This document shows, one piece after another, positions 6,133-13,873 of a stretch of DNA of 22,458 nt. Source of the stretch: a virus. The notes under the pieces are model-generated. The model saw nothing but the letters and a program-made list of their open reading frames with translations. It searched no databases and was not told the DNA's origin. The stretch lies in IMG/VR virus record IMGVR_UViG_3300021364_001321, positions 1 through 22,458 of that record; one strand, written 5' to 3'. The number at the start of each line of letters is the position of its first letter. Within the stretch, counting starts at the first letter, position 1. The position numbers and the translations under genes were made by a program.

Positions 6133-6807
6133 CTACATCTTCACACAGTTGTCTACAGTCTTGCCACCTTTTTTCTTAGTGCCCATACGCTTGTAGCCTT
6201 TCCAGCATACTTTGCCGTCAACACCTTTTTGTTTTTCTTCTGGTAGTGTTGTATAACTTGGATTACCACAGTCTGGACATTTAGATTCTACAGATTCTTT
6301 AGCAGTCTTATAGTAAAGACCTTTTGATTTTTTCTTTTCTTCTAGTTTTTGAGTAAGTGTTTCTAGGTAAGATTCTTTAAATCCTTTTTTCTTTGCTTCA
6401 TCGTCTAGTTCAGCTTTTTTAGCCATTACTTCTTTTTTAAGTTTTTCATCTTTGTTTGTATTTGGATTCATTTGGATATCCTGTATGGCCTTTTTCTGTG
6501 CCATATAATCTTCTTTGTCTTTGATAGCTTCGTCAATTTTACGAGACTCTGAAACTTGATCAAACTTCATTTCATAATCCATATGATGATAAACACTGCT
6601 TAGATAATCAGCGGCTTTTGTAATTTTAGATTGCACCCAACCTTCAAGACCTTCACGTTCTTCAACACCTTTTAGCATTTCATGCATTTTAATCGCATAT
6701 TTTGCAACCTTGTACAATTCTGCTCGTGCCATTTGTACTTCGTGATCTGACTCGACTTTGAAAGCCATGTCAGCTAAACCAGTTTCTTTTAGATCTTTTT
6801 CTCTCAT
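6133..6807 (-). CDS. Charged helical protein with C-terminal zinc-binding segment; probable virion or core protein
   Basis: This 224-residue protein is mostly helical and strongly charged. A block GWVQSKITKAADYLSS (56-71) followed by VYHHMDYEM is of a type seen in several marine T4-like phages, function unknown. A lysine-rich coiled region runs to about residue 170. The C-terminal 50 residues hold CPDCGNPSY, then single cysteines in GKVCWKGYKR and VDNCVKM, so a four-cysteine zinc site (C-x2-C plus two later Cys) is possible. The N-terminus MREKDLKETG has an L-K-E site like the leaders of its neighbours. The SD AAGGA lies eight bases before the ATG. The gene follows a 69-residue basic protein with a 21-base gap. 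A structural or packaged role is inferred from the neighbourhood only. Confidence 0.75.
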   Translation of the reverse strand: MREKDLKETGLADMAFKVESDHEVQMARAELYKVAKYAIKMHEMLKGVEEREGLEGWVQSKITKAADYLSSVYHHMDYEMKFDQVSESRKIDEAIKDKEDYMAQKKAIQDIQMNPNTNKDEKLKKEVMAKKAELDDEAKKKGFKESYLETLTQKLEEKKKSKGLYYKTAKESVESKCPDCGNPSYTTLPEEKQKGVDGKVCWKGYKRMGTKKKGGKTVDNCVKM

Positions 6808-6828
6808 TGAATTATCCTTGTAATATAT

Positions 6829-7038
6829 TTACCTTTTAATACTTCCGCCTGTCATTAAATTAGCACCCATATCTAAGGCATTTACAGCAGTCCCGTCTTT
6901 CTTCTTTTTCTGCTTTGCTTTTGGCATACCGTTTTTATCACGTGGTGCGTCATTCTTATATATAGCACCAACACTTACATTTGCCGCAGATGTGCCACCT
7001 GTTGTTGCTATTTCTTTTAGAAGTTCTCTTATTAACAT
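6829..7038 (-). CDS. Small basic protein with L-K-E leader
   Basis: This 69-residue protein starts MLIRELLKEIATTGG, then has a Gly/Ala/Ser-rich segment, a strongly basic patch (KAKQKKKKDG, 40-49) and ends in NLMTGGSIKR. The C-terminal M-T-G-G pattern resembles the end of the 69-residue protein at 9387-9596. The start may be a capsid-targeting-like leader with an L-K-E cut site (see findings). The sequence before the ATG, GGTAAATAGTATTATG, shares 14 bases with the start region of the gene at 13882-14223; AAAGG is 11 bases from the ATG. It sits between the 777-residue mosaic protein and the 224-residue protein in the same orientation. A role as a small packaged or DNA-binding protein is inferred from charge and context only. 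Confidence 0.65.
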   Translation of the reverse strand: MLIRELLKEIATTGGTSAANVSVGAIYKNDAPRDKNGMPKAKQKKKKDGTAVNALDMGANLMTGGSIKR

Positions 7039-7056
7039 AATACTATTTACCTTTTT

Positions 7057-9390
7057 TTATGTACTCTTATTGGTATATGGAGCACTTGTGTCTTTAGCTA
7101 TGTTTAGATCTTTTTGCATTTGTTTCATAGTTTTCTTAGCCGCATCCATGTCTTTAGTATTCATTTTATAGCTTTTGCCACCACCGGCATCAAAATTAAA
7201 ATGCTTATTACCATCTACATCAATACCAACAGATGCCGCGCCTGCTCCAATTTTAACTCCACTTTTAAGTTTGTTGCCATCCATATCATAAATGCCTTTT
7301 AGATCTACACCTACATCTCCGTCACCTGTGTCTACTGGTGTATGAAAGTCTTGTGTTACAGTGTTTTTAACAAAATCCTGCACCTGTTGTAATCCTTTTA
7401 TCTTAGGAGATTCATATTTAATTAATTTACCATCTGGTGTAAAAGTATATGTGCCAGCACCACTTGCTACAGTTCTGTTTCCATCTTTTGTAGTGTCAAT
7501 AGTTGTACCATTGTCATTTGTACCGTCTGGAGTATCTGAACTAGGAGCTTCTGGAGCTGTTGGCATTTTTAATATTTTTATTTTATCAGGCACTGCACTT
7601 TTTGGATCAGGATTACCTTGGTTTGGATCATCCATTGTCGAACTCATTGTTGCCATATTGTTGAGTTTGTCTAGCGGAGTATTTACTTTTGCCATATCAC
7701 CTGCCGCTACAGCATTAACCATAGTGCCTAGTAAGACAGCAATAAGTGTTAAGTTCTTAGCTGTTTTTGGAATTTTTTTAAGAATAGGTTGTACTTTACC
7801 TAATAGATTTTTTGGAAGTTTTTTTAAAGTATCTGCTATGCCTTCCTCTAATTGTTGAGGAGTGCTTTCTAATAAAATTTTAAAAAATTCATCCTGTGTG
7901 TATGATTCAGATTTTTTACGACCTGACTTCATATTAGCACACCAGTGATACATCTTTGCCTTTTCACCACTTGCGTTTTTTGCTCTTTTTCGTAAACTAG
8001 TTACTGATCCATTACAACTAGCACCTGCTTTTTTAACACGACCCGGTCTACTTTTGCCTTTTTTCTTACCGTCAGCAAAGTTTTCTGTCATCATCCCTAA
8101 AACAAATTCAAGAGTGTAAGGTAATTTTGCAACAGTAATTGATTCCATTTGTAGCATTTTTACAACATCGTATCTATGATGACCGTTAATAATTCTATTT
8201 GTGCTATCAACTACTATAGGTGTATATTTTCCACCTGCAATTTTCTTTAATTGTTTAGTATAGTTTTCTTTAAGTCTTTCTTTTTGTACAGGTACAATAC
8301 TTTCTACTTTAATACTTACAATCTTATGTGGTATATATTCTAAATGTTTTTTACGTATTTGTGGAAGTTGATCTCTAGTATAACTTTCTGATTTTTTCTT
8401 TTTAGGTAAACCTTTATGTTTTGTAGAAGCAAATTTTTTCACATCAGATTTTTTCATATCTTTTGCTACTTCTCCTGCTTCTCCACCTTTAGGCATATCG
8501 CCTTTTTGCATTGCTCTAACTATGCCAAAGAACTGTTGTTGTTTTTTGCTTACTGCTTTTTCTTCAACAGGTTGTTTCATGTGTTGCTGTATTGCTTTTG
8601 CTGTTCTTTCAAACTTATGATCTTTGTGTTTGAAGCCTTCACCGCCTGCGGCTTCCCAACTTGCAATATTTTTACCAAAGTCGTCAATTAATATGTTAGG
8701 TGTGCCATCTGGATTTGTTGCGAACTTTGCTTTATCATGTGTAATGATAACATTTTCTGGGGGGAAGAAATCTAAGTTCTTTTTAATCCATTCACGCTTG
8801 TGTGGTTCTGAATTAGGGTCATTAGGTAGTGGGCTACTTAAAATACTGTAACTACCTTTTACTTTTTTAATTACACCTAGTAAGTTTTTTGCTTGCGGAA
8901 GCAAAGGTAAGTTTAACCAAAAATCATCTGTATCTCTAATTTTTTGTAGTGCAGGCTCTATGTCTTTGACTTTACGCCAATCTTTGCCTATTAACTTTTG
9001 CCATTCTCCAAAAAAGTCTGCTAGTACTCCATCCATGTCAACAAATACTTTACTTGTACTTGCTAATTCACCTATATCTTCTGCCATCTTAGCATAGTAT
9101 AACACAAGTTCATCGGAGTTGTCAACCGATTCTGCAAGGCCTAGATTGAATAGTACATTGGTTTTGGAGCCTTTTACTTTTTTTGATAGTGTAGGTGGAC
9201 GGCCATCCTTGTCTACTTTGTTACCAAACTTAGCGGCTTGTCTTTTTGTTTCACCTGGTTTTACATCTGCTGTGGTATTTTGTTTTGTTATTTTACCAAC
9301 ACCAGCCGCTTCTACTTGCATAAGAACATGTTTGAAGCTTCCTTTCTTAGGTACTTTGTTTTCAATGTCTTTAAAACTATGAAACTTCAT
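7057..9390 (-). CDS. 777-residue mosaic protein: HAD nucleotidase, DUF3008-like, ParB-like and Cys/Lys modules
   Basis: The protein is a string of modules. Residues 1-90 are basic (QAAKFGNKVDKDGRPP at 51-66) and end in GLAES. Residues 114-245 form a HAD-fold 5'(3')-nucleotidase-like domain: FVDMDGVLADFF (116-127) gives the catalytic aspartates, ILSS (183-186) motif II, K220/K222 the conserved lysine, and LIDD (234-237) motif IV. Residues 278-330 (KKQQQFFGIVRAMQKGD to KHKGLP) match a small module common in marine phages (DUF3008-like). Residues 356-425 are ParB/sulfiredoxin-like with RIINGHHRYDVV (399-410). Residues 443-493 form a basic Cys module (GKSRPGRVKKAGASC, YHWCANMKSG). A single hydrophobic segment (546-563) precedes a low-complexity, Gly/Asp-rich tail. 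The linker KKSESYT recurs at 332 and 492. Its ATG overlaps the previous stop (ATGA). A multidomain packaged 'polyvalent' protein or a polyprotein is my inference. Confidence 0.88.
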   Translation of the reverse strand: MKFHSFKDIENKVPKKGSFKHVLMQVEAAGVGKITKQNTTADVKPGETKRQAAKFGNKVDKDGRPPTLSKKVKGSKTNVLFNLGLAESVDNSDELVLYYAKMAEDIGELASTSKVFVDMDGVLADFFGEWQKLIGKDWRKVKDIEPALQKIRDTDDFWLNLPLLPQAKNLLGVIKKVKGSYSILSSPLPNDPNSEPHKREWIKKNLDFFPPENVIITHDKAKFATNPDGTPNILIDDFGKNIASWEAAGGEGFKHKDHKFERTAKAIQQHMKQPVEEKAVSKKQQQFFGIVRAMQKGDMPKGGEAGEVAKDMKKSDVKKFASTKHKGLPKKKKSESYTRDQLPQIRKKHLEYIPHKIVSIKVESIVPVQKERLKENYTKQLKKIAGGKYTPIVVDSTNRIINGHHRYDVVKMLQMESITVAKLPYTLEFVLGMMTENFADGKKKGKSRPGRVKKAGASCNGSVTSLRKRAKNASGEKAKMYHWCANMKSGRKKSESYTQDEFFKILLESTPQQLEEGIADTLKKLPKNLLGKVQPILKKIPKTAKNLTLIAVLLGTMVNAVAAGDMAKVNTPLDKLNNMATMSSTMDDPNQGNPDPKSAVPDKIKILKMPTAPEAPSSDTPDGTNDNGTTIDTTKDGNRTVASGAGTYTFTPDGKLIKYESPKIKGLQQVQDFVKNTVTQDFHTPVDTGDGDVGVDLKGIYDMDGNKLKSGVKIGAGAASVGIDVDGNKHFNFDAGGGKSYKMNTKDMDAAKKTMKQMQKDLNIAKDTSAPYTNKST
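7888..7917 (-). repeat. Linker repeat copy 2 in the mosaic protein (KKSESYTQDE)
   Basis: Residues 492-501 of the 777-residue protein repeat the linker found at residues 332-341, eight of ten positions identical. It joins the Cys/Lys module to the C-terminal part and runs into FFKILLES, a segment resembling an internal-protein leader with an L-L-E site. Confidence 0.7.
8368..8397 (-). repeat. Linker repeat copy 1 in the mosaic protein (KKSESYTRDQ)
   Basis: Residues 332-341 of the 777-residue protein, directly after the basic end of the DUF3008-like module and before the ParB-like domain. Both copies follow a run of lysines, so each seems to mark a boundary between formerly separate modules. 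Confidence 0.7.
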
Positions 9391-9596
9391 TTTTTGCGTC
9401 CTCTAAATCCACCACCGGTCATGTGCGGTAAACTAAACCATAGTTTGAACCAGTCATCGTCTCCTGGCTTGATACCTTTTTTCTTTTCTATCTTACGTTT
9501 CTCACTTGCAGTTTTACTAATGTTTTCTATAGTATAAGGTGTGTATCCTTTATACTCGTTGACACCTGCAAGTTCTTTCAAACGCTCGATATCCAT
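9387..9596 (-). CDS. Small basic protein with KELAG leader
   Basis: This 69-residue protein begins MDIERLKELAGVNEYKG, continues with a charged helix (EKRKIEKKKG, 33-42), and has the aromatic segment DDDWFKLWFSLPHMTGGG before a basic end (RGRKK). The WFKLWF-type segment is one I recall in other marine phage small proteins, without known function. ERLKELAG reappears as NRVKELAG in the middle of the 220-residue protein at 11016-11678. The ATG follows the upstream TAA by one base (TAATATG) without a clear SD, so translation is probably coupled; the TGA overlaps the start of the mosaic protein. Confidence 0.68.
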   Translation of the reverse strand: MDIERLKELAGVNEYKGYTPYTIENISKTASEKRKIEKKKGIKPGDDDWFKLWFSLPHMTGGGFRGRKK

Positions 9597-9597
9597 A

Positions 9598-10692
9598 TTA
9601 ATCTGCCCGTCTAATGTCGTGTTTAATACCTAAATTAGAAAATAATTTTGATGTTGTTTCTATACTTGTAAGTGCTTGTTTAATTCTGTCTAAATGATCT
9701 GGGTTAGCTTCTACTTTTTGTCTAAACTTATTAGCGGCATCAGGTTTAATGAATATTAATCTACCACTCCAAGCGGCGCCTTTGCGATAAAAACTTAAAA
9801 AATGTTCCTTACCATCTGCTCTATCTGCAATCCAATCTAACACTTTAAGTTTGTTAGGATCTTGTTCCTTAATACTATTATTGTCTGTACCTTTAAATAA
9901 TTTATATTCGTCTAAGTTTTCGTTTTGCTTTTCTTTTTCTGCTTTATCTTTAGCATCAAGATCCTTTTCAATTTTATTGCTTTTTCCTAAACTCTTTTTA
10001 AATTTTGATATTGCTTTTTTGCCAGCATCTCCAGTTCCAGGTTTTACTTTTGTAGGTTTTTTACCTGTTCTTTTCATATATTCGTCTGGAGTTTCTTTTC
10101 GCTGTTCGCCTAATGCTTCTCCTACAGCGTCAACACCCATTATGCCTTGTAGTTTCTTAAACATTTCTTCTGCGTGAGGCATAGCTTGTTGTGTAATACC
10201 TCTTTTAAAAGAATTAATGTCGTTGTCTAGCACAGTTTGTCTAAGTTTACTAGCACTCATTCCAGTAGCATCACCTGCTTCTGGATCACGCTTTAGTTGA
10301 ACATAGTTGATTTTTTCAAAGTTGTAGTTATGCTGTTCTTTTTCAACACCATTATACTGTTGCAATATTTTTAATAGTTTTGGTTCACCTTCTAAAAATG
10401 TTACTTCAGTATAACCCATTTTGTATAGTCTATCAGCGGCTGTTAGTACAGTTTTTGCTAGTCCAATACTAATACCATCAAAGCTCTTACGAGCCCAATC
10501 TAGTTTATCTTGTGCTGTTAATGGATCTGATGGAAGTTTCGGTGCTCTATCTGTTAAAAATAAAAAAGAATCACCTGGGGCATTTTTAATTGCATTTACA
10601 AGAAGTTCATGTCCTGAAGTTGCTGGATTTAATCTGCCTAGTGCAAACGAGGCAACTTTACCTTCAGCCTCATATAGTTGTCTTAGTCGCAT
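9598..10692 (-). CDS. Nucleotidyltransferase-domain protein with basic linker and extra C-terminal domain
   Basis: The first 190 residues are a cytidylyltransferase/NMN-adenylyltransferase-like fold. GRLNPATSGH (20-28 with Gly19) is the nucleotide-binding G-x-x-N-P-x-T-x-G-H motif, and GMSASKLRQ (144-152) is the C-terminal S-x-S/T-K-x-R motif. Such enzymes transfer a nucleotide from ATP or CTP to a phosphate acceptor such as NMN. Residues 196-260 are a lysine-rich, low-complexity linker, and 280-364 form a separate unrecognised domain (KVLDWIADRADGKEHFLSFY, then LIFIKPDAANKFR). It begins MRLRQLYEAEG, a leader-like sequence with an L-Y-E/A site. The ATG lies inside the preceding gene (23-base overlap), with AAGGAAG ten bases upstream. 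NAD salvage is one possible role; CTP-dependent chemistry is another. Confidence 0.8.
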   Translation of the reverse strand: MRLRQLYEAEGKVASFALGRLNPATSGHELLVNAIKNAPGDSFLFLTDRAPKLPSDPLTAQDKLDWARKSFDGISIGLAKTVLTAADRLYKMGYTEVTFLEGEPKLLKILQQYNGVEKEQHNYNFEKINYVQLKRDPEAGDATGMSASKLRQTVLDNDINSFKRGITQQAMPHAEEMFKKLQGIMGVDAVGEALGEQRKETPDEYMKRTGKKPTKVKPGTGDAGKKAISKFKKSLGKSNKIEKDLDAKDKAEKEKQNENLDEYKLFKGTDNNSIKEQDPNKLKVLDWIADRADGKEHFLSFYRKGAAWSGRLIFIKPDAANKFRQKVEANPDHLDRIKQALTSIETTSKLFSNLGIKHDIRRAD

Positions 10693-11014
10693 CTGGTAAT
10701 TCTTCCTTAGGGTTTCTTTCGTGATCTAAAACTTTGTTAGCTAGGTCTGCTCTCTCTTGAGGATTCATTAGTTCCTCAGGTGTTTTATCCAAGTTATATT
10801 TTAAACAATAATGATTTAAACATTTGTCAATCATAGGCATTAGATGTCCTTGAATAACCTTTTCGTTATGTTCGCTACGTATTTTATCCATGCATGGCAT
10901 ATAATGATGACGATAAAAAGGTTCATCATTTAGCATATGAAAATGCACATCGTCTGCAACATTATATGGCATTGAATCGTTTAATGGATTGTTAAAAATT
11001 TCTGTTAGTAACAT
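10670..11014 (-). CDS. Unidentified protein, 114 residues, His/Met/Cys-rich
   Basis: No family is recognised. It starts MLLTEIFNNPLNDS, then contains a histidine-rich stretch (HFHMLNDEPFYRHHYMPCMDKI, about residues 24-45, given here in pieces), another Cys/His stretch (KCLNHYCLKYN), and an acidic, helical end. The His and Cys spacing could bind a metal, though no standard motif is formed. A longer reading frame begins at 11086, but it would overlap the upstream gene by over 70 bases; the ATG at 11014 has AGGAAG about eight bases upstream and comes one base after the upstream stop, so I chose it. Its 3' end overlaps the nucleotidyltransferase start by 23 bases. Confidence 0.7.
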   Translation of the reverse strand: MLLTEIFNNPLNDSMPYNVADDVHFHMLNDEPFYRHHYMPCMDKIRSEHNEKVIQGHLMPMIDKCLNHYCLKYNLDKTPEELMNPQERADLANKVLDHERNPKEELPDATKTTI

Positions 11015-11015
11015 A

Positions 11016-11678
11016 TTACCACTTCCTACATGACCAATATCTTGCCTTAGTTCTTGGTCCTGGGTTGTCGCAGTTGTGTCTTGCACGGAACGAACGTCTA
11101 CGTGCTGGGTTTGACTTTTTGATCTTCATGTTAGGATCACCAAAGTTAACTTTCTTGATATTTTTAGTCTTTGGATCTCTTACATACACTTTGAACTTCT
11201 TAACATCGCCACGCATTGGCTTACCAAGTTTAACTTTTCTTCCTTGGTATTCTGCTTCGTCCATGATTTCATCTTCGTTGTACCACATGTCACCATAATT
11301 ATTATAGAAATCATCTCCATCATACGTTTCTTCGTTAGTGTATATGCCGGCTAATTCTTTAACTCTGTTTACTTCAGTAGATTCATTTGTACCGCAGTCT
11401 GGACCGCAGTTACAATCAGGAGTACAATTTCCGCCACAAGCACAATCTTCATTGCAGTTACAAGCCATTGCTTCTTTAACTTCAATGCTTTCTTTTTTCT
11501 TTTCAGCTTTGCTATATTTGTCTTTTAAGCGTCCTAGTTCTTCTTGGCTTGCACCTTCACGTCCTGCTTTAGCGGCCTTTTTCATGTATTCTTTACCGTG
11601 CTTTTTGACACCTGTATAATACTGTAGGCCCGATTCGTTTTCAGCTTCTTTGAGATAATCTTTAAATGTTTTTGTCAT
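11016..11678 (-). CDS. Modular basic protein with central Cys-rich metal-binding-like segment
   Basis: This 220-residue protein begins MTKTFKDYLKEAENE, very like the capsid-targeting start of T4 internal protein III (MKTYQEFIAEA). A basic helix follows (YTGVKKHGKEYMKKAAKAGR). Residues 72-96 hold nine cysteines in C-x-C-x3-C-x-C-x3-C-x3-C-x-C-x3-C-type spacing (ACNCNEDCACGG, CTPDCNCGPDCG), which may bind zinc, copper or an iron-sulfur group. NRVKELAGI near residue 105 repeats the leader of the 69-residue protein at 9387. The last 75 residues are very basic (KVKLGKPMRGDVKKFKVYV, then ARRRSFRARHNCDNPGPR, ending YWSCRKW) and belong to a module common in marine phage proteins, function unknown. 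It is preceded by both a sigma70-like promoter and a late box, with SD AAGGTG. Confidence 0.82.
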   Translation of the reverse strand: MTKTFKDYLKEAENESGLQYYTGVKKHGKEYMKKAAKAGREGASQEELGRLKDKYSKAEKKKESIEVKEAMACNCNEDCACGGNCTPDCNCGPDCGTNESTEVNRVKELAGIYTNEETYDGDDFYNNYGDMWYNEDEIMDEAEYQGRKVKLGKPMRGDVKKFKVYVRDPKTKNIKKVNFGDPNMKIKKSNPARRRSFRARHNCDNPGPRTKARYWSCRKW

Positions 11679-11700
11679 GTGTCAACACCTTTTAAATTAT

Positions 11701-11729
11701 AATATAAAGTATTTATCAATATCAGTCAA
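11701..11729 (-). promoter_or_regulatory. Sigma70-type promoter for the Cys-rich protein operon
   Basis: The minus strand has -35 TTGACT (11729-11724), a 17-base spacer and -10 TATATT (11706-11701); an overlapping TATAAT lies at 11702-11697. It lies in the short divergent gap between the speD-like gene and the minus-strand block, and would drive 11678 leftward. Confidence 0.65.
11710..11717 (-). promoter_or_regulatory. Candidate T4-type late promoter box GATAAATA
   Basis: This octamer sits inside the spacer of the sigma70-like promoter at 11701-11729 and points the same way. Transcription would begin near 11704, about 25 bases before the ATG at 11678, leaving the SD AAGGTG in the leader. The gene might thus be read in both early and late phases. 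Confidence 0.5.
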
Positions 11730-11775
11730 GCTCTATATGGTCAGTGGACTAAATAGAAACCAAAAGGAAACGGCT

Positions 11776-12138
11776 ATGTTGAAGCACAAACATATGATAG
11801 TAAGAGCTGAAGTTAGCAATCCTCCTCAATACGAGCAAAACATAGTCGATTGGGCGAGTAATTTAATCAGAGATATAGATATGAAAATAATGATGGGCCC
11901 ATATGCAAAATATTGTGAAATGCCAGGCAATAGAGGCTTTACATGTGTTGCTATTATTGAAACAAGTCATATAGCAGTACATATTTGGGACGAAGTTAAA
12001 CCTGCACTTGTACAACTTGATGTATATACATGCGGAGATCTTGATAAAGGTAAAGTGTTTGATGCACTAGAACGTTGGGATCCAGTCAAAGTAGAATTTA
12101 AATATCTTGATAGAGAAAAAGAACTTATTGAAGTTTAA
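11776..12138 (+). CDS. speD: SpeD-family pyruvoyl decarboxylase (AdoMet decarboxylase or arginine/ornithine decarboxylase)
   Basis: This 120-residue protein is a SpeD-family proenzyme, which cuts itself before a serine to form a pyruvoyl cofactor. TSHIAVHIWDE (63-73) matches the cleavage region with Ser64 as pyruvoyl residue and His69 as the processing histidine; DVYTCGD (82-88) supplies Cys86. The classical family has Glu before the serine; here it is Thr63. AdoMet decarboxylase makes the aminopropyl donor for spermidine. Marine phage homologues are reported to include arginine or ornithine decarboxylases, so the substrate is uncertain. I chose the ATG at 11776, with AAAAGGAAA five bases upstream, because the reading frame further upstream (from 11677) crosses the divergent promoter region. 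It is the only plus-strand gene, and its stop overlaps the stop of the convergent gene. No confident promoter is seen for it. Confidence 0.92.
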   Translation: MLKHKHMIVRAEVSNPPQYEQNIVDWASNLIRDIDMKIMMGPYAKYCEMPGNRGFTCVAIIETSHIAVHIWDEVKPALVQLDVYTCGDLDKGKVFDALERWDPVKVEFKYLDREKELIEV

Positions 12139-13607
12139 GTTTTAGGTAATTTAAAAGCAAATCTACTCTTGATATCAGTACCGTAGTAAGGACTATTTTC
12201 TATTGTAGCTTTTTCTTTGAAGTTTGGAGGATAAACAACTCCTATACTTCTAACTGCGGCATCTTCACCTTGAGCACCTAGTATACTGGTAGCCTGAATC
12301 ATAGCGGAACTGTTTAGAAACTTTCTAATTGCTTCACCAAAATCTATTAATTGGCCTGCGTGTGTTGCATTTGGATCATTAATATACTTGGCAACGTCTT
12401 TTGCAATACTGCTTAACACAACTAATCCAAAATAACTGCCTGGTTTGTATGCAATTTTATCAAACATTGGTAATAAAGATGCAGGACCTTTTTGTCTATC
12501 TGTATTTCTATCACCAGTAAGTTTTTGATCTTCTGTATAACGGTTAGCTTTCTTTTCAACAATAGCATAAAGGTCTGCCGCTTCTTCTTTTGTAATAATA
12601 CCATATCTAATAGCAAGTGTTAGAGGTTGTTTTGCCGCAGATTCATTTGCACAAATATCTAAGATATGCACTGCTTCTGCATATTGCTTAATATATGTCT
12701 GACCTGTCTGTGTTTTTTTGGCAGATTCTTTGGCTTTCCATATGTTAGAAATACTTGCATTTGCACCTGTCTTTCCTTTATGGCTAACACCCATTTGTAT
12801 ACCGTCTTTTGAAATATAACAATCAACTAACGGATTATTCTGTCCTTCAGGAAACATAATTGTTGCATTATCTAGTTGGAATCCAGGTGACCATATGTCA
12901 TCTATAGCAACATTAATAGGACCTTTTACTGCTTGGTGTTTGTTAATGATTGCAATTGGTGCAACAACTTCCATAAAGTCATCTTGTAAGGCTCCAATAA
13001 TTGGTTTACCTTTGTCAAATATTATCGCTTCATTACTACTTGCTTCTGTTGCCCCTTTCGCAAGCATCGGACCGTTGTTTGGATCCTTACCAACTTCAGC
13101 AATAACCTGTCCAACACTTCTAGCCTTGTTATCACCTAAGCCCAGATCGCCTGGTTGAAGTTTACTATTCATTTTGCCTTTAACACTGCTCGTACTAGAA
13201 ACACTTCCCGCACTCAAACCAACAAGTCTTGCTTCTTTATCTAATATTGTATTACCTGGACTTTTTCTTGAATAAAAACTTGTTAACCACAAATCACTTT
13301 TTGGTATTTTATTTCCTTTATCATCCATCCGAGCAAATTTTGCAAAAGCAAAAGACTTCATTCTTGGGGTCATTTGTTTTACAAGTTTAAATGTTACATC
13401 TGGATTTGCTTGTTGTACTGCTTTTAATCCTGCATCGAGCTCTTCCATGTTAGCAAACATGTCTCTGTCTTCAGGATAGTTGTAATCCCATTCAATAAAT
13501 GTGTATTCATCTTTGTTTGTGCTATTTTCATCAGTATAAATTTCTCCAGGAGTTCCGGCTCTAAGTCCGCTACCTTCCATGAGATTTTTAATCTGATAAA
13601 AACGCAT
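12135..13607 (-). CDS. Unidentified 490-residue protein with L-M-E leader
   Basis: No family is recognised with confidence. The protein begins MRFYQIKNLMEGSG, which fits the leader pattern of the neighbouring block with an L-M-E/G site. Residues 20-110 look like a globular alpha/beta domain, followed by a Ser-rich stretch (LSAGSVSSTSSVKG). The middle holds KDGIQMGVSHKGKTGANAS (about 267-285), whose beta-strand and G-x-S-H-K-G-K pattern faintly recalls nuclease cores of the PDDEXK type; this is a guess. The C-terminal third is helical and ends in an ordered-looking segment (SPYYGTDIKSRFAFKLPKT). Its ATG overlaps the upstream stop (TAATG). It faces speD with overlapping stop codons. It is complete, with no sign of frameshift. 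Confidence 0.8.
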   Translation of the reverse strand: MRFYQIKNLMEGSGLRAGTPGEIYTDENSTNKDEYTFIEWDYNYPEDRDMFANMEELDAGLKAVQQANPDVTFKLVKQMTPRMKSFAFAKFARMDDKGNKIPKSDLWLTSFYSRKSPGNTILDKEARLVGLSAGSVSSTSSVKGKMNSKLQPGDLGLGDNKARSVGQVIAEVGKDPNNGPMLAKGATEASSNEAIIFDKGKPIIGALQDDFMEVVAPIAIINKHQAVKGPINVAIDDIWSPGFQLDNATIMFPEGQNNPLVDCYISKDGIQMGVSHKGKTGANASISNIWKAKESAKKTQTGQTYIKQYAEAVHILDICANESAAKQPLTLAIRYGIITKEEAADLYAIVEKKANRYTEDQKLTGDRNTDRQKGPASLLPMFDKIAYKPGSYFGLVVLSSIAKDVAKYINDPNATHAGQLIDFGEAIRKFLNSSAMIQATSILGAQGEDAAVRSIGVVYPPNFKEKATIENSPYYGTDIKSRFAFKLPKT

Positions 13608-13873
13608 TATACACTCACTTCAATATCAAAGTTGTTATAACCTAGATCAAATAATTTATGCGCCACATCTTCTGCAATTAAATCTGATTCTTCTTCGTCT
13701 AATTTTGCGTGTGTTTCTACAGTAAGGATTGTTTGTCCTTTCTCTGATTCAGTTAGACTGTAATTAGTTTCGCTTTCTAATAATGCAGGCGAAGCCATTG
13801 TAGCAACTTCTGATACTACAATATCATCTATTTCTTCTTTGTTATCAAAAATGATATTAATAAAGTGTTCCAT
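13607..13873 (-). CDS. Small acidic protein, possible prohead-core type
   Basis: This 88-residue protein is strongly acidic (DNKEEIDDIVVSE at 11-23, DEEESDLIAED at 59-69) with few basic residues and no membrane segment. It contains two L-x-E/S sites close together (ALLESE and SLTESE), the type cut by the T4 prohead protease, so a scaffold or core protein is conceivable; T4 has small acidic core proteins. The last residues (GYNNFDIEVSV) look like a beta strand. The SD TAGGA is seven bases before the ATG, and its stop overlaps the next gene's start (TAATG). No homologue is recalled, so the function is open. Confidence 0.65.
   Translation of the reverse strand: MEHFINIIFDNKEEIDDIVVSEVATMASPALLESETNYSLTESEKGQTILTVETHAKLDEEESDLIAEDVAHKLFDLGYNNFDIEVSV

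Follow-up and report, generated by a model that had tools for sequence, protein, structure and literature searches.

The window analysed here, the 22,458-base virus record IMGVR_UViG_3300021364_001321, belongs to a lineage of marine T4-like myoviruses of bacteria and contains, between a clpA/dnaJ side and a polymerase side, a minus-strand block of about nine genes, most of whose products begin with a short leader ending in (L/I)-x-E. The identity of its DNA polymerase does not exceed about 50% with cultured phages (the jumbo phages Phosso and Atu_ph07) and amounts to 88% with record G001 (145,946 bases) and 68-69% with records G026 and G027; a megablast search of the window against phages gave no match. 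A home-made caller, blind to the L-x-E motif, supplied the gene starts, and the relatives used for comparison are 42 viral loci with the same flanking genes as the window block. The genes of the block are listed below, with a slash at each predicted cut.

13607..13873, minus strand: 88-residue acidic protein on the edge of the block, of which it is an uncertain member; (L/I)-x-E not found in its first 14 residues (its G001 homologue has IEE)
12135..13607, minus strand: 490-residue protein (g490); predicted leader MRFYQIKNLME/G, nucleotides 13575-13607, with LME and Glu11
11776..12138, plus strand: short gene inserted in the block, which we take to resemble S-adenosylmethionine (SAM) decarboxylase (speD)
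11016..11678, minus strand: 220-residue basic cassette protein (g220); predicted leader MTKTFKDYLKE/A, nucleotides 11646-11678, with LKE and Glu11; an RVKELAGI motif is also present
10670..11014, minus strand: 114-residue protein (g114); predicted leader MLLTE/I, nucleotides 11000-11014, with LTE and Glu5
9598..10692, minus strand: adenylyl/cytidylyltransferase of the NMNAT/PPAT superfamily; predicted leader MRLRQLYE/A, nucleotides 10669-10692, with LYE and Glu8
9387..9596, minus strand: 69-residue basic protein (g69a); MDIERLKE/LAGVNE/YKGY, with LKE and Glu8, cut site ambiguous
7057..9390, minus strand: 777-residue mosaic (g777); long predicted leader ending in KHVLMQVE/A, nucleotides 9310-9390
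6829..7038, minus strand: 69-residue basic protein (g69b); predicted leader MLIRELLKE/I, nucleotides 7012-7038, with IRE/LKE and Glu5/9
6133..6807, minus strand: 224-residue basic cassette protein (g224); predicted leader MREKDLKE/T, nucleotides 6784-6807, with LKE and Glu8

The seven N-terminal L-x-E sites named in the original prediction are all present in these genes; it speaks of eight proteins but names seven sites, alongside KILLE/S, which is internal to g777. That protein combines a HAD-type 5'(3')-deoxyribonucleotidase, a DUF3008-like cassette, a ParB-like domain, basic cassettes and the internal site, and its own N-terminal site is the weakest by the strict motif because the third residue before the cut (P3) is Gln (LMQVE/AAG) and not Leu or Ile.

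Enrichment of the leader motif in the block

In the window, (L/I)-x-E occurred within residues 2-14 of 7/9 block proteins and of 2/24 proteins elsewhere (Fisher p=2.6e-4). The motif had been said to be absent outside the block, which is true of 22 of the 24 genes but not of g123 (LEE) and g155 (ILE). The wider enrichment proposed as a check was clearly found across the 42 loci, where 218 of 370 distinct block proteins carried the motif, compared with 36 of 504 outside; in the g114 family, 25 of the 31 distinct members from block loci had it. When families were clustered on residues 21 onwards, that is, on protein bodies only, a majority leader was seen in 58/99 block families and 9/83 outside (p=9e-12). 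Within G001, the share of genes with the motif was 11/12 in the block, 6/11 in the head region and 9/115 among the rest. T4 IPII, IPIII, Alt, gp67, gp68, gp21, gp22 and gp24 served as controls and were all positive by the same motif.

Short, Glu-rich, amphipathic N-termini could by chance yield L-x-E sites that have no function, and the loose motif is indeed common: T4 has 232 called genes, and 50 of these, many of them unrelated, carry it in residues 2-14, as do the two window genes outside the block. The diagnosis of a single protein by L-x-E is therefore weak, and the motif has weight only in aggregate or together with junction and homology evidence. Chance is nevertheless a very improbable account of the block as a whole, given the leader-blind family test, the low frequency of the motif in internal 13-mers of block proteins (9-12% in the 42 loci) and the exact placement of Glu behind unrelated leaders.

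A strict regular expression for the leaders of T4 internal proteins had no match in G001, indicating that this clade uses another leader consensus; the clade leaders with Glu at position 8 follow M-[RK]-[LI]-[RK]-[EQD]-[LI]-x-E. A T4-like late promoter, TATAAATA, showed no clear pattern upstream of the block genes.

Glutamate marks the junction between leader and body

The strongest single result came from the junction analysis of the g777 homologues. In this family, 35 distinct N-termini of 6-36 residues stand ahead of one conserved body, which starts with GRIVKGVNTT or near variants (GR(I/V)VKGVNTT-type). A Glu lies 1-2 residues ahead of the body in 35/35 of these leaders, and P3 is L, I, M, V or F in 34/35, the exception being the window's own copy. 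The leaders on this body are interchangeable and include MRLRQLYE, MKISDLLE, MRFYELNE and the long MKFHSLKDIENKVPKPGSFKHFLRIQE.

The propeptide is likewise separable from the mature body in the g490 and nucleotidyltransferase families. Homologues of g490 begin MRFFELILE/ASGLRA and MRFYQIKKPLFE/AKG, and Glu11 is invariant in the three sequences despite their differing leader lengths. Few residues of the nucleotidyltransferase are the same in all 14 homologues, two of them from cyanophages; Glu8 is among these, and is the only invariant residue between Met1 and the nucleotide-binding motif. The N-termini of g224 homologues also vary (MREKHLKE/G, MKAKQLKE/G and other starts). The site is thus retained in homologues, as the original prediction required, with leaders being swapped and the junction Glu kept. 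A cleavable propeptide accounts for this pattern, and an N-terminus that is amphipathic or arose by chance does not.

Several of the bodies behind these leaders, at 7057-9390, 6133-6807 and 11016-11678 and in their homologues, are mosaics of short basic cassettes that have been reshuffled between loci, among them DUF3008-like, CWKGYK, KGKSRPGRVK...YHWCANMKSGRK and GLYYYVNK-like cassettes. PHROG and Pfam scans assigned the block proteins to families other than those of T4 IPI, IPII and IPIII or to unknown ones, the bodies themselves not having been compared directly. Searches for g490 and g69b in phages by tblastn returned no match. The structure predicted for g490 from three sequences had a mean pLDDT of 45, a low confidence, and was not used.

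A prohead protease and head genes in close relatives

The original prediction presupposed a gp21-type protease in the genome. A Peptidase S77 search of the window's own record found none, as expected of a 22-kb fragment, and such a protease is encoded in G001. The head genes of G001 run in T4 order, with portal, small acidic and core-like proteins, the Peptidase S77 protease (gp21), a gp22-like scaffold and a gp23-like capsid protein, these names except that of the protease being based on gene order and sequence features. The clade capsid protein has the expected junction, KYLAE/NATAGATSAGNVA. A gp21-family protease was present in 13/13 related records, which had been chosen for carrying this capsid protein. 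A search of 20 further block-bearing records for the G001 protease found none, a blank that says little because most of them are fragments.

Leader-bearing homologues in purified virions

The window nucleotidyltransferase matched a PHROG cytidyltransferase family (3e-27), and its AlphaFold model gave Foldseek matches in the PDB to PPAT and NaMNAT/NadM (E ~1e-5 to 1e-4); the residues of a GRxNPxTxGH-type core motif are invariant in the alignment. Model and alignment together support an NMNAT/PPAT-type fold. Mass spectrometry (MS) has detected NMNAT/cytidylyltransferase homologues in CsCl-purified virions of the cyanophages S-SCSM1 (PMC9602691), S-CREM2 (PMC10665884) and S-SZBM1 (PMC9146016). 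These virion proteins start with MKSFLQFLKE/A, MKNFSSFLTE/A and MRFRQFIIE/A, respectively, the last of which nearly equals the window's MRLRQLYE/A. The mature proteins are predicted to start with ADEKQQQAPK in S-CREM2 and AVAAAAK in S-SZBM1.

Five adjacent genes around the S-SCSM1 NMNAT are annotated as virion proteins, and one of them is the DUF3008 cassette that also occurs in g777. Among the S-CREM2 proteins with leaders like those of T4 internal proteins, 5/6 were detected by MS, compared with 52/219 overall (p=0.003); a looser leader expression gave only a trend (p=0.07). The leader-bearing virion proteins of this phage include a SAM hydrolase, an APH/ChoK-like kinase, the cytidylyltransferase and gp13, whose presence in the virion was previously unexplained. 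In the transferase regions of HTVC008M and S-PM2, no clear leaders were seen at the annotated starts, so that the leader is not shown by every T4-like phage.

The leader might instead mark the proteins for degradation, or for a destination other than the capsid such as the membrane or a replication compartment. The T4 controls, the distribution of the motif in head genes and the leader-bearing homologues found in virions by MS all speak against this reading, and we consider it highly unlikely.

We also noted some features at the termini of other phage proteins. The start of the Bellamy cytidyltransferase (L126:4830-6017) is probably annotated too late, and an upstream in-frame Met gives MKSLFQFLNEAQSQAS, matching S-SM2 and S-SCSM1. 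The virion Cas9-like nuclease of S-CREM2 (OR473000, 7704-10313) is leader-like near both ends (LRFASFMAEAA and C-terminal PKTFRDFLN), and S-SCSM1 gp279 and S-SM2 SSM2_163 end in TFKEFLE/TLKEFLE-type tails. These C-terminal sequences suggest that targeting may also act from the C-terminus.

Capsid and scaffold motifs in leader-bearing proteins

After its leader MLIRELLKE, g69b continues IATTGGTSAANV, and the stretch ATTGGTSAANV that follows MLIRELLKE/I resembles the N-terminus of the mature major capsid protein. No other window protein matches the capsid-protein junction of G001 as well (score 39, against 30 for the next), and the clade homologues of g69b are stronger: MKIKEILE/SATAGATSAGSIAT in G026 and MKIREIFE/TATAGATSSANIAT in G027, with the capsid protein reading KYL(S/A)E/SATAGATSAGNVAT. 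Each proteome was then scanned against its own mature capsid N-terminus, only part of the genome being covered for S-SM2 and S-SCSM1. The best non-capsid match was a leader-bearing protein, matched just behind its leader, in 6/7 genomes, with scores (best/next) of 69/37 in T4, 95/39 in S-CREM2, 83/39 in S-SCSM1, 110/40 in S-SM2, 60/39 in G026 and 53/40 in G027; shuffled queries reached maxima of 39-47, and the T4 protein appears twice in the output. In G001 no mimic of the capsid junction rose above background, and a 355-residue block protein has similar sequence at its C-terminal end.

The T4 protein is the uncharacterised gp61.1 of 54 residues (NC_000866, 18966-19130), which reads as a leader like those of the T4 internal proteins (MKTFKEFIKE) joined to a copy of the N-terminus of mature gp23 and ending in a tail rich in Lys; its predicted mature start, directly after the leader, is DMVAGDSGGNPENISIG. 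Relatives of gp61.1 were matched in 1386 phage records, although some of these matches may be gp23 itself. The S-CREM2 mimic is gp160, which the virion study lists among the MS-detected proteins (PMC10665884). A 61-residue S-SCSM1 protein annotated as 'major head protein' (L131:18122-18307) is a capsid N-terminus mimic, and an upstream in-frame start gives MDKTDRVIQLIREMIAVGAGG. What is new here is that this clade, cyanophages and T4 (in gp61.1) all have a small leader-bearing protein that copies the mature capsid N-terminus immediately behind the leader.

A second motif, [ILV]x[ERKQD][LI]AG[ILV] (for example RLKELAGVNE), was found in 35/370 block proteins, many of which form one family, and in 1/504 others. 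The only other place where G001 (122243-123343), G026 and G027 have this motif is the very end of the gp22-like scaffold, at its C-terminus; the carriers in the window are 9387-9596 and 11016-11678.

These copies, together with the occurrence of the leader motif in clade head genes, would also fit leaders that are scaffold- or shell-binding tags of assembly factors. Such proteins would help to build the head without being injected, and most would be broken down or leave it, as happens with T4 gp22, gp67 and gp68. Several block proteins, however, have enzyme domains with no assembly role, and the transferase homologues persist in mature purified virions; it is thus unlikely that the block encodes such factors.

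Discussion

We propose, with a probability of roughly 85%, that the block is a T4-type capsid-targeting and prohead-protease system that has been expanded into a modular cargo operon. The capsid-packaging interpretation offered originally gains support from the protease in G001, the conserved site and the transferase homologues in purified virions of three isolates. Directly observed are the motif enrichment, the leader junction with its swapping, the protease and cleavable head proteins of a near relative and the published virion detection of leader-bearing homologues. Each block gene would give rise to a protein with an N-terminal capsid-targeting propeptide. During head assembly the leader would dock the cargo in the scaffold core, and the gp21-family protease would cut behind the Glu. 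The mature cargo, including the NMNAT-like nucleotidyltransferase, the HAD/ParB mosaic and several basic proteins, would stay in the DNA-filled capsid and enter the host along with the DNA. In T4 IPIII, a change of the Glu to Asp preserves targeting and abolishes cutting. Targeting by the leader and cutting at Glu are proposed by analogy with T4 IPIII, for which both are experimental (PMC9026906), and we infer injection and function in the host. A presumably removable T4-type shell-loading tag on almost all block proteins makes it probable that the virus carries ready-made enzymes into the cell.

Several observations weigh against this proposal. The protease and capsid genes are not in the window, and the virion MS evidence comes from homologues in other phages. 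In G026 and G027 the motif was present in about half of the block genes, compared with 15-17% elsewhere. The strict leader test in S-SCSM1 was not significant (1/5), and two adjacent virion proteins of that phage have no obvious N-terminal leader. No published peptide starts directly after a predicted site. The authors of the S-CREM2 (PMC10665884) and S-SCSM1 (PMC9602691) studies warn that abundant proteins may co-purify and leave undecided whether the enzymes are carried.

The block resembles the T4 proteins IPI, IPII, IPIII and Alt, whose capsid-targeting sequence is cut by gp21 (PMC9026906), in its leaders of about 8-11 residues ending in (L/I)-x-E, its basic proteins and the gp21-family protease of a close relative; the g220 leader is the nearest in the block to that of T4 IPII/IPIII (MKTYQEFIAE/A). 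Unlike the T4 internal proteins, those of the block number eight or more and are encoded almost one after another; most are unrelated to each other, and several are enzymes or mosaics of multiple domains. Its leader consensus is MRLREL.E, whereas that of T4 is MKTYQEFIAE, and some block-type leaders reach 27-36 residues. In phiKZ and SPN3US, a gp21-like prohead protease similarly trims many packaged ejection proteins after Glu (PMC9026906, PMC5694885); the P3 residue (S/A-x-E in phiKZ) and the phage group differ, however, and the proteins there make up an inner body or ejection mass.

The virion transferases of S-SCSM1, S-CREM2 and S-SZBM1 share with the window a homologous transferase domain and a Glu-terminated leader. 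The available text of those papers reports or discusses packaging versus co-purification and names no packaging signal, which the leader would supply. In the literature searched, 'capsid targeting' and 'cyanophage' co-occurred in a single paper, where cyanophages appear in the reference list alone.

T4 gp61.1 shares the layout of g69b, its copy following the T4 capsid protein and that of g69b the capsid protein of this clade. We tentatively suggest that T4-related phages in general might load cargo by copying their own head-assembly signals, namely the leader, the capsid N-terminus and the scaffold LAG motif, and that these copies would anchor the cargo on the inside surface of the shell, where Lys-rich tails meet the DNA. 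Such loading would make gp61.1, a candidate of capsid-mimic design in the best-studied phage, an overlooked internal protein.

Taken together, the leader would be a sequence signal for proteins carried into the host by T4-related phages, and would explain the NMNAT-like enzyme, SAM hydrolase and kinase reported in cyanophage virions. Among the T4 internal proteins, IPI acts by blocking a restriction system, and a part for IPIII in the infection of E. coli ECOR17 has been proposed (PMC9391042). Early in infection, the NMNAT-like enzyme of the block might replenish NAD or another cofactor, possibly against an NAD-depleting defence, and many uncharacterised proteins become candidates for host takeover in the first minutes or for suppression of defence.

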